DNA of 16,544 bases, from the NCBI GenBank assembly GCA_903930515.1, contig CAIYYW010000161.1:1-16544 (forward strand), in the 5' to 3' direction. A model generated the notes under the pieces. The model was not told the origin of the DNA. It was given only the letters and a program-made list of their open reading frames with translations, and searched no databases. This document shows, piece after piece, positions 4,734 through 6,443 of this stretch. This DNA is from an uncultured delta proteobacterium (lineage in GTDB: Bacteria > RBG-13-61-14 > DRUE01). The translations under genes and the position numbers were made by a program. The stretch's first letter is position 1. Every line of letters starts with the position of its first letter.

Positions 4734-5459
4734 ATGACGGGCAGGGCAAAACCGAAACCGTTCAGTATCGGTTGGGATGTTGGCGGATGGAATTGTGACA
4801 AGAATCCACGAAGCCGCGATGCCATCGTCATCCTGGATTCCATGCTGAAGATTGTTGGCGAGCCGTGGCGGGGTAATCTGCGGGAGGGTGTCTGCGAGAA
4901 TTCCAAGACAAGCGATTGGCTCAAGGCGCTGTTCAAAAATTGTGATGCGGAATTTCCTGATGAGCCGATGGCGATCACGATGGCTATTGATGCACCTCTG
5001 GGGTTCTCCGAGGAGTTTGTGAATCTGGTGACCAGCTTGAGGTGCGTGGATTCGGTCGAGAGGTTTAACACCAACCGCTATCTGTTTCGTCAGACCGACC
5101 GGGGTCTTTTCAATCAGGGCCTAAAACCATTGTCCCCGGTCAATGATATGATCGGCAGCCAGGCGACCAAGGGGATGCATGTCCTCGCAAAATTCGCACC
5201 CATAGTCGAGAGCTGCGGTGTGTGGACTGATGGTGAGGGATTCCATGCCCTCGAAACCTATCCAACGGCGTGCCGGGAAACAAGGGTAGTGAAGAAGCTG
5301 CTGAAAGGGCATAAGCCACTAAGGGATGACGACAGGAACGACGCTCGGATCTGCGCCCTAGTGGCGCATCTTTTTGCCACAGATCGGGGGGCGTTCAGCC
5401 AACCTCCCGAAAGCGTCCCGCAAAACGAAGGTTGGATTTGGGTGCCCCGGAAAAGATAA
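4734..5459 (+). CDS. DUF429-like RNase H-fold protein
   Basis: A 241-residue protein resembling DUF429, a family of predicted RNase H-like nucleases whose function is not proven. An early acidic residue lies in GWDVGGW (D15). The IDAPLGF strand carries D86, E174 lies in LETYP, and the C-terminal DDDRNDARICALVAH (D203) matches the last acidic position of the fold. NRYLFRQTDR and the MIGSQATKGMH segment are also family-like. It begins 6 bases after the khpB stop, with only a weak GAGGG upstream, and may be co-transcribed. It occupies the position where mnmE often follows khpB, so it is probably a lineage-specific insertion. It converges on the GIY-YIG gene. Confidence 0.7.
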   Translation: MTGRAKPKPFSIGWDVGGWNCDKNPRSRDAIVILDSMLKIVGEPWRGNLREGVCENSKTSDWLKALFKNCDAEFPDEPMAITMAIDAPLGFSEEFVNLVTSLRCVDSVERFNTNRYLFRQTDRGLFNQGLKPLSPVNDMIGSQATKGMHVLAKFAPIVESCGVWTDGEGFHALETYPTACRETRVVKKLLKGHKPLRDDDRNDARICALVAHLFATDRGAFSQPPESVPQNEGWIWVPRKR

Positions 5460-5490
5460 TATGAGTACTGTCGGCCAAATCAACAAGCAA

Positions 5491-5504
5491 ACGGGGTCAG
5501 GTTT
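5491..5504. repeat. GGGGTCAGG motif at the distal edge of the GIY-YIG unit
   Basis: ACGGGGTCAGGTTT on the plus strand contains the reverse complement of the GIY-YIG stop codon (5497-5499). From memory, GGGTCAGGT-type sequences often border REP-associated and IS200-like transposase genes in other bacteria. Here it may mark the end of the GIY-YIG/palindrome unit. Only one copy is seen in this window, so the repeat status is inference. Confidence 0.3.
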
Positions 5505-5748
5505 CCTTCCAGAAATGCCTTTTGGCGAAGGCCCTGCCAGAGCCTGATTTCAAATATTTTTCAAAATGTTTCGCGGCTTGGTCATCTTCGAACCTGATCA
5601 CTACCACCAATTCCCAGGGCTTGAATTTGGCCGTATGCGCTGATTGGCCGGCATTATGCTCTTGGATTCTTTGAAGGTAATTTGAGGATATGCCCACATA
5701 GTGCTGATCCGGGTGATTGATACTCCGAATTAGATAGACATATTTCAT
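5497..5748 (-). CDS. Small GIY-YIG nuclease domain protein
   Basis: An 83-residue GIY-YIG domain protein of the single-domain UPF0213/Slx1-like kind. It begins MKYVYLIRS (the GIY strand) and continues with HYVGIS (the YIG strand), LQRIQEHN (candidate catalytic Arg), then FEKYLKSGSGRAFAKRHF carrying the metal-binding Glu. The start is set at 5748 because AAGGAGGG (revcomp of 5757-5764) lies 8 bases upstream and homology begins there. The same frame stays open upstream to an ATG at 5940, which would add 64 basic low-complexity residues encoded by palindromic repeats; I treat that as leader. The Shine-Dalgarno sequence is itself part of a repeat arm. Function is unknown; DNA nicking or mobility of the repeats is a hypothesis. 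Confidence 0.88.
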   Translation of the reverse strand: MKYVYLIRSINHPDQHYVGISSNYLQRIQEHNAGQSAHTAKFKPWELVVVIRFEDDQAAKHFEKYLKSGSGRAFAKRHFWKET

Positions 5749-5945
5749 GAGGTCGGCCCTCCTTCGTCTTCGCTTCGGGCTTGACTTCGGCGGGCACCAG
5801 ACTTCGCCACCTGTGTGGCATAGACGCCAAGCGCGGCCGTCTGCAAAAATAATCAACTCCGGCGAGCCAGACGAAGCCTTGGATGAGAAGTCCTCCTTCG
5901 CTCGGGTTACCGAGCTACGGCGGACAGCCTTCGCCGACAATTCTG
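5749..5945. repeat. Palindrome-rich leader of the GIY-YIG gene
   Basis: Non-coding, GC-rich DNA made of imperfect palindromes. One pairs GCCCTCCTTCGTC (5756-5768) with GACTTCGGCGGGC (5783-5795), 9 of 13 positions complementary. A second and stronger one lies at 5891-5924. Between them is a stretch (about 5800-5890) with scattered CTTCG/CGAAG words but no strong hairpin that I can see. The minus strand supplies the ribosome binding site of the GIY-YIG gene. The whole leader is open in the GIY-YIG frame, but its translation (many Arg, Ser, Lys) does not look like a folded domain. Confidence 0.65.
5891..5924. repeat. Imperfect hairpin A, member of dispersed palindrome family
   Basis: Left arm TCCTCCTTCGCTCGG (5891-5905), loop GTTA, right arm CCGAGCTACGGCGGA (5910-5924); 12 of 15 positions pair. 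The mismatches include a TTC opposite TAC core. With the adjoining GGACAGCC (5922-5929) it matches, as reverse complement, the segment 14631-14665 at 30 of 35 positions. Confidence 0.75.
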
Positions 5946-5990
5946 ATCACCTGCCTAATCGCCTTTTTTCTATTTTATGCAACTGGCTTG

Positions 5991-6016
5991 CCAGCCGTAG
6001 CCTTGGCGAAGGCTGG
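5991..6016. repeat. Hairpin B abutting the tRNA-Glu 3' end
   Basis: CCAGCCGTAGCC (5991-6002), loop TT, GGCGAAGGCTGG (6005-6016); 10 of 12 positions pair. The mismatched core is GTA opposite GAA. Its last three bases, TGG, are the complement of the tRNA-Glu CCA end. On the minus strand the hairpin lies immediately downstream of the tRNA. An A-rich rather than T-rich stretch follows farther down that strand, so it is not a canonical intrinsic terminator. Confidence 0.7.
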
Positions 6017-6088
6017 TGGTCCCAGCGGGAATCGAACCCGCGTTACCGGATTGAGAGTCCGGTGTCCTAACCCCTAGACGATGGGACC
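6014..6088 (-). tRNA. tRNA-Glu (anticodon CTC), CCA encoded
   Basis: Read on the minus strand, the acceptor strands GGTCCCA and TGGGACC pair fully. The D arm begins CGTCTAGGGGTTAGGAC, the anticodon stem CCGGA/TCCGG encloses loop CTCTCAA with anticodon CTC (complement of 6053-6055), and the T arm is CGCGGGTTCGATTCCCGC. The discriminator is A (complement of 6017), followed by encoded CCA (complement of 6014-6016). The body is 72 nt. I see no convincing promoter directly upstream; co-transcription with tRNA-Gln is possible. A palindromic repeat begins at its CCA. Confidence 0.97.
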
Positions 6089-6170
6089 GGCTGCTCCTAA
6101 AAAGTTGAAAAGTTTATCAGTTTATATGTTGACAAAAAACCCGATTGTCCTTCCATCCAGTCATCAACCT

Positions 6171-6210
6171 GGCTGTCCTCCGCAGCCCCTTCTCACTCCG
6201 AAGGAGGATC
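6171..6210. repeat. Hairpin C between the tRNA genes
   Basis: TCCTCC (6176-6181) pairs perfectly with GGAGGA (6203-6208). The inner flanks are GCAG and CGAAG, a GCA-opposite-GAA version of the family core. It is preceded by GGCTG, which makes the left arm resemble both hairpin A and the copy at 14631. Confidence 0.6.
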
Positions 6211-6226
6211 AACTTATAAACCTACC

Positions 6227-6277
6227 TGTCCTCCGTAGCCTCTTCTTGCTCGCGCCATCTGTCGGCGAAGGAGGATC
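6227..6277. repeat. Hairpin D between the tRNA genes
   Basis: TCCTCCGTAGCC (6229-6240) and GGCGAAGGAGGA (6264-6275) pair at 10 of 12 positions across a 23-base loop. The mismatched core is GTA opposite GAA, the same as in hairpin B. The word CCGATTGTC occurs both at 6141-6149 and just after this hairpin at 6278-6286, so hairpins C and D are bracketed by a 9-base direct repeat. Confidence 0.65.
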
Positions 6278-6329
6278 CGATTGTCAACTGATCTTAACCA
6301 GGATCGGTTTTGCGCCGCACTTTTCAAAA

Positions 6330-6404
6330 TGGCTCGGGGCCAGGGACTCGAACCCCGACTGCCGAATCCAGAGCCCGGTGTCCTGCCAATTAGACGAGCC
6401 CCGA
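6330..6404 (-). tRNA. tRNA-Gln (anticodon CTG), CCA encoded
   Basis: Read on the minus strand, the acceptor strands TCGGGGC and GCCCCGA pair fully, with discriminator G and encoded CCA (complement of 6330-6332). The anticodon stem CCGGG/TTCGG, with two G-T pairs, holds loop CTCTGGA with anticodon CTG (complement of 6369-6371). The T arm is CGGGG, loop TTCGAGT, CCCTG. The body is 72 nt. A near-consensus sigma-70 promoter lies directly upstream. Confidence 0.96.
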
Positions 6405-6415
6405 AACCGTTAATC

Positions 6416-6443
6416 AGTATAATCTCCGAGCCTTGTTTGTCAA
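6416..6443 (-). promoter_or_regulatory. Sigma-70 promoter of tRNA-Gln
   Basis: On the minus strand, TTGACA (complement of 6438-6443) and TATACT (complement of 6416-6421) are 16 bases apart. The -10 ends 11 bases before the mature tRNA 5' end, giving a primary-transcript leader of roughly 5 nt. The two hexamers depart from consensus at one base in total. Confidence 0.75.

Follow-up and report, generated by a model that had tools for sequence, protein, structure and literature searches.

A GIY-YIG nuclease gene packaged with REPIN-like palindromes at the 3′ ends of bacterial tRNA and tmRNA genes: a probable mobile element

A gene for an 83-residue single-domain GIY-YIG protein, preceded by a leader of imperfect palindromes, lies beside a tRNA-Glu gene in a 16,544-nucleotide stretch of DNA from an uncultured delta proteobacterium (contig CAIYYW010000161.1; this whole stretch is hereafter the window). 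Is this a chance neighbourhood or a packaged unit that moves? A preliminary description of the window had proposed an analogue of the REP/RAYT systems, in which a GIY-YIG protein acts on or spreads palindromes. Our data support this proposal, the unit being an analogue and not a member of RAYT/REP. We consider it probable that the unit is a copy of a mobile REPIN-like palindromic element that has the 3′ ends of tRNA and tmRNA genes as its home and a GIY-YIG nuclease as its driver. Mobility, packaging and target are well supported, while the action of the nuclease on the palindromes is what we infer.

In the window the whole unit, palindromes and small GIY-YIG gene together, spans about 520 bases and is flush with the 3′ end of tRNA-Glu. 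The features of the locus are as follows.

6014–6088, minus strand: tRNA-Glu (CTC), the presumed target, identified by ARAGORN, Rfam tRNA and sequence
6013–5749, minus strand: leader of 265 bases, its first base directly after the tRNA-Glu CCA (6014)
5984–6013, minus strand: hairpin A of unit 1, left arm GCC-TTCGCC, right arm GCTAC-GGC, then the palindrome TGGCAAGCCA (5993–5984)
5927–5935, minus strand: second complement of the left arm, GGCGAAGGC, which could pair with 6013–6005 in place of the right arm of hairpin A
5890–5925, minus strand: hairpin B of unit 1 (GTCCGCCGTAGC...GCGAAGGAGGAC), the hairpin A motif in inverse orientation
about 5882–5756, minus strand: unit 2, which begins at the apical loop of its A hairpin (CCAAGGCTTCGTCTGG...), then GGCGAAGTCTGGTG (5808–5795) and hairpin B2 (5795–5756)
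5758–5762, minus strand: Shine-Dalgarno sequence GGAGG, inside the right arm of hairpin B2
5497–5748, minus strand: GIY-YIG nuclease gene, 83 amino acids from ATG, putative catalytic residues Y5, Y17, R27, H31 and E63 intact
5491–5496, minus strand: approximate outer end of the unit, placed by analogy with Bradyrhizobium and not defined in the window itself
6171–6209, plus strand: gene-less B-type palindrome between tRNA-Glu and tRNA-Gln
6225–6279, plus strand: second gene-less B-type palindrome (CCTGTCCTCCGTAGCC...GGCGAAGGAGGATC), also between tRNA-Glu and tRNA-Gln

The leader consists of two units, unit 1 flush with tRNA-Glu and then the truncated unit 2. Hairpin A reads GCC-TTCGCC-AAG-GCTAC-GGC, followed by TGGCAAGCCA, and the encoded CCA of tRNA-Glu (6016–6014) doubles as part of its stem. 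Unit 2 is without a left arm and its arm (GAC) differs from that of unit 1; similar truncated tandem units are present at Bradyrhizobium loci. The leader had been described as palindromic, and folding bore this out, since it folded better than shuffled sequences both as DNA (z −3.2, 1/200 shuffles equally good) and as RNA (z −2.7, 0/200 equally good). No Rfam match was found for the leader. The Shine-Dalgarno sequence GGAGG (5762–5758) was confirmed to lie within a repeat arm, the right one of hairpin B2. The stop codon does lie inside GGGTCAGG, as had been reported; however, we found no reason to give that 8-mer special weight. The unit had also been said to fit neatly between a DUF429 stop and the tRNA-Glu CCA. 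It is indeed flush at the CCA (6014), while on the other side the DUF429-like ORF ends at 5459 and its Pfam match falls below the family cut-off.

The 83-residue gene itself proved real. The ORF begins with ATG (an upstream in-frame TTG start, giving 147 amino acids, would run through the palindromes), and its match to PF01541 (E=2.8e-15), putative catalytic residues and fold place the product in the GIY-YIG superfamily. Y5, Y17, R27, H31 and E63 were invariant in 35/35 sequences, a set made up of P0001 and the loci where these residues fall in the aligned part. The predicted model has a pLDDT of 95.7 and its nearest folds are Slx1/HIGLE and UPF0213. Slx1 is a cutter of branched DNA, and the Slx1-like fold of the model fits, but does not show, a hairpin substrate.

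The B motif is present in 13 copies in the 3.65 Mb genome of the window, with 0 for the reversed control; an initial palindrome pattern (GCTTCGGCGGACA...) gave no match. The genome has just two GIY-YIG genes of this kind, and two of the 13 copies lie no more than 300 bp from them, where 0.006 would be expected; the other 11 B-type palindromes have neither a tRNA nor a GIY gene nearby. In the second of these GIY-YIG genes (contig 326), which is not placed flush with a tRNA, a TAG stands in the position of the YIG tyrosine. Both gene-less palindromes of the window (6171–6279) are on the opposite side of the target tRNA-Glu from the GIY unit. Most B-type palindromes of the window's genome, G000 (L007–L011, L013–L017, L019), are found in clusters of intergenic repeats distant from tRNAs and from GIY-YIG genes.

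Is the position behind a tRNA gene peculiar to this locus? We searched 84,980 species genomes with the GIY-YIG protein family only and analysed the best 80 loci, most of them from metagenome assemblies. Since the search used only the protein family, palindromes and tRNAs had no influence on the choice of loci. At 60 of the 80 best loci a same-strand tRNA or tmRNA gene lay no more than 500 bp upstream, compared to about 0.6 expected, a chance figure taken from the other 22 tRNA genes in 772 kb. No upstream tRNA or tmRNA gene was found on the opposite strand at the best 80 loci, and their downstream side gave one case for each strand. A search with the family profile served as an internal control: a tRNA was upstream in 14/18 matches above 40 bits and in 0/7 GIY-YIG matches below 38 bits. 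The preliminary description had placed the unit only in a gap before a tRNA and missed its link to tRNA and tmRNA 3′ ends as the target. Target kinds number 13, tmRNA (16), Ala (16), Ser, Glu, Val, Gln, Pro, Leu, Phe, Met, Gly, Asp and Tyr, and the hosts of the tRNA-linked units belong to at least 13 named phyla. Many of the 20 loci lacking an upstream tRNA are at contig ends or have a tRNA/tmRNA 3′ remnant before the leader; such remnants are seen at L039, L049, L063 and L114.

Several further arrangements were observed. A relative with a hairpin A start lies directly after a selenocysteine tRNA gene (L293, genome G303), and at another locus two GIY-YIG genes of the family follow a tmRNA gene in succession (L285, genome G338). 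More distant GIY-YIG genes at L025, L026, L033 and L035 (genomes G003 and G056) are located between a tRNA or tmRNA and a duplicated tRNA/tmRNA 3′ part; these form a second architecture of tRNA-linked GIY-YIG genes, and some have TCCCGAA...TTCGGGA palindromes. At L302 (genome G270) a GIY-YIG relative is in an rRNA operon region where the sequence just upstream resembles 23S rRNA, and this gene may be in an intron or intervening sequence.

The hairpin A architecture of the window is common to 56 of the 61 tRNA-adjacent leaders, which start exactly at the CCA with a short arm followed by TTCGC or a close variant. Arm sequences were of 15 different kinds. The right arm after GCTWC was the perfect complement in 48 of these 56 leaders, while shuffling the arms among loci gave a mean of 13.3 and a maximum of 21; the second complement was perfect in 41/56. 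In hosts without an encoded CCA (for example the tmRNA of some Planctomycetota), direct reading of the sequence puts the leader directly after the discriminator base, with the arm spanning the place of the CCA. The leader is thus conserved with the gene in other genomes, a check that the preliminary description had called for.

Copies of the unit were also detected with a pattern of tRNA T-arm, CCA and hairpin start, of whose matches a few are not units. This looser pattern found flush copies in 17/22 genomes, and the reversed pattern found 0. The majority of the extra flush copies have no GIY-YIG gene yet retain hairpins A and B. In B. macuxiense such gene-less copies follow several different tRNAs, all with the CGC arm. 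A stricter pattern gave copies in 14/386 broadly sampled genomes, its reversed control being 0 in all. Arms agreed within genomes in 41/80 pairs compared to 15.8 in shuffled data (P about 5e-5), and when the richest genome was omitted P was about 6e-4. Strong relatives of the protein (at least 85 bits) were present in 6/14 genomes with strict copies and in 2/28 comparison genomes, a count that leaves out comparison genomes G131 and G151, which are Bradyrhizobium. Four of the 14 genomes with strict flush copies had no strong relative of the protein. The proposed relation of the palindromes to GIY-YIG genes stands, and gene-less copies bear the same arms as units in the same genome. Comparison of sequences thus shows leader and gene as one package, flush with a tRNA or tmRNA gene and in its orientation, with arms that covary and are typical of the genome.

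At tRNA-Ala, nuclease type is also matched to arm type. At this site CGC arms were found with a WYV-type protein (39) and GCC arms with a KYV-type protein (7), along with one GGC-arm WYV unit; because the sequences are related this count is not a probability. In a tree of 91 proteins, built on few columns and modestly supported, units that are sisters and have identical arms sit at different targets: tmRNA and Ala (L038, L041), Pro and Gln (L060, L070), and Ser and Phe (L099, L103), with SH-aLRT of 80–88. The arm is therefore a property of the element, not of the tRNA.

Unoccupied orthologous sites, whose absence the preliminary description had named as a refutation, do exist in the Bradyrhizobium group. 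Strains differ in what starts at the base after the CCA of tRNA-Val(GAC): in some it is a unit with a CGC arm, in others a unit with a TCC arm, and in the rest unrelated sequence. At tRNA-Phe the unit is clear in 4/30 strains (7 by a coarser script) and most have unrelated sequence. The distance from tRNA-Ala(GGC) to the same downstream gene is about 45 bases (a hairpin remnant), 65–115 bases (a gene-less unit) or 380–520 bases (a GIY unit), truncated or stop-containing GIY genes are among these sites, and family relatives sharing the upstream gene have no unit. In the tRNA-Ala series the host flank resumes within about 7 bases past the GIY stop codon. Only this series sets the right end, because the flanks downstream of Val and of Phe cannot be aligned. 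The comparison of loci with and without the unit, suggested earlier as a way to define its ends, therefore gave the right end, but a clean empty site with both flanks intact, sought at tRNA-Val, tRNA-Phe and tRNA-Ala, was not found; the sites are one-sided empties and a two-sided length series whose shortest member retains a hairpin remnant. For intact genes of Bradyrhizobium the median dN/dS is 0.066, indicating purifying selection. Comparison thus reveals occupied and empty sites, changes of tRNA identity between sister units, decayed copies and purifying selection on the intact genes.

Could the system instead be domesticated? The GIY-YIG protein may have a useful chromosomal role, either in hairpin repair or at tRNA genes as replication or transcription barriers, with the palindromes as regulatory or substrate sites and with negligible present mobility, as argued for RAYTs. 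The strong purifying selection fits such a role. So does the GIY unit held at one tRNA-Ala across many Bradyrhizobium species under strong selection, a unit that looks domesticated as much as mobile. In addition, family matches numbered 0 on 72,556 plasmids and 50,697 phages and only 2 among 2.9 million viral contigs, one of these again after a tRNA-Ser 3′ remnant, and the family is therefore chromosomal. However, presence is patchy, many copies are decayed, sister elements sit at different targets and gene-less copies at other tRNAs. We regard a domesticated host role as unlikely to be the main explanation, and it would be compatible with past mobility.

Another alternative is an element that works at the RNA level, in which a structured leader RNA on the tRNA transcript regulates either tRNA 3′ processing or the expression of GIY-YIG, and co-transcription, not DNA insertion, explains why the unit is flush with the tRNA. 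This would account for the flush start, the constant strand, the good RNA fold and the Shine-Dalgarno sequence within a hairpin arm. It does not account for copies without the gene and away from tRNAs, or for arm types that cross phyla and switch targets, and the leader has no Rfam family; we consider it very improbable. Hairpins behind tRNA genes are common in bacteria, which would favour ordinary terminators or common REP repeats beside an unrelated GIY-YIG gene, but this chance neighbourhood is excluded for practical purposes by the tRNA-proximity counts, including the contrast between strong and weak profile matches, and is opposed by the conserved motifs and covarying arms across phyla, on which grounds the terminator reading was rejected as well. 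Two known element types were also rejected: a group I intron with a GIY-YIG gene, as tRNA-Glu is intact and no Rfam intron match was found in 5480–6420, and a tyrosine-integrase island, as the GIY-YIG gene is the sole ORF in the units.

How might a mobile palindromic element driven by a GIY-YIG nuclease work? Its cis part would be a REPIN-like inverted pair of hairpins, A and B, starting at the last bases of the tRNA, and its trans part a single-domain GIY-YIG endonuclease; full units bear the nuclease, and gene-less copies follow other tRNAs of the same genome. The protein may recognise the hairpins of its own element, whether single-stranded or as cruciforms, and cut there. The probable cut site is the apical loop of hairpin A, since truncated tandem units, unit 2 of the window included, begin at that loop, which suggests cutting there. 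New copies would be joined to the CCA end of the tRNA gene, perhaps via pairing of TGGTG with the CACCA end. In some units the second complement runs on into TGGTG, which is complementary to the CACCA end of the tRNA gene, and unit 2 of the window retains TGGTG without an adjacent tRNA, as if it had once been beside one. Insertion behind an intact tRNA would be harmless, and the GIY-YIG gene may use the tRNA promoter for its transcription. We infer that the protein cuts or spreads the palindromes. The full proposal is a new class of mobile element in at least 13 phyla, in which a cognate GIY-YIG nuclease inserts palindromic units specifically at tRNA/tmRNA CCA ends through hairpin-loop cutting and TGGTG/CACCA pairing; we advance it tentatively, as a possibility somewhat short of an even chance.

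To our knowledge, each palindrome family described in bacteria is either linked with an HUH transposase or lacks a known mover. The present units pair palindromes with a nuclease of another family, and do so in many phyla at a highly conserved landmark of the genome, the tRNA/tmRNA 3′ end. This would add a mover for palindromic repeats, would explain some of the hairpins behind tRNA genes and would offer small cognate nuclease-hairpin pairs that are directly testable. In term searches of 5.39 million open-access articles, with matches judged by title and abstract, we found no work linking GIY-YIG genes with palindromes of the REP kind or with the ends of bacterial tRNA or tmRNA genes. Units of this kind at tRNA or tmRNA genes in at least 13 phyla point to a mobile DNA family that has not been described and for which the ends of tRNA genes serve as home.

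The units resemble the REP/RAYT systems (REPtrons, REPINs) in that a nuclease gene is flanked by imperfect palindromes, palindromes form inverted pairs, gene-less copies are present elsewhere in the genome, nuclease type is matched to palindrome type and a chromosomal copy is under selection. In contrast to those systems, the nuclease is GIY-YIG, with no homology to the Y1 HUH tyrosine transposase, the palindromes are flush with tRNA/tmRNA 3′ ends, and the TTCGC/GCTWC motif is internal whereas REPs have a terminal GTAG or CGTC tag. According to a 2013 survey, GTAG repeats are tied to tyrosine transposases and CGTC repeats have no associated transposase; REPs of both kinds have an unpaired terminal tag on a simple stem-loop, CGTC stems start with A-T, and GIY-YIG is not mentioned (PMC3733652). 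Set against REPs as described there, our units have GTAGC or GAAGC within the stem, no unpaired end tag and no A-T start, and identity with the CGTC repeats seems unlikely, since their described stems differ.

The nearest match in the literature is SegB of phage T4, a GIY-YIG homing enzyme encoded in the tRNA region of the phage (PMC13096335). Free-standing GIY-YIG homing endonucleases of this type share with our units a GIY-YIG gene beside tRNA genes and selfish spread; our units differ in that they are located on bacterial chromosomes, encode a single domain with no DNA-binding domain apart from it, carry structured palindromes in cis, exist as gene-less copies as well and have many different tRNA targets. 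Slx1/HIGLE and UPF0213 have the same fold and are the nearest sequence matches, but Slx1 has an extra domain and a partner, Slx4, and is without palindromes or tRNA linkage. Finally, tyrosine-integrase islands likewise use tRNA/tmRNA 3′ ends as sites, and tRNA 3′ remnants travel with some of our units; unlike those islands, the units described here have no integrase, are 0.1–0.5 kb in size and are flush at the CCA without the usual internal crossover.
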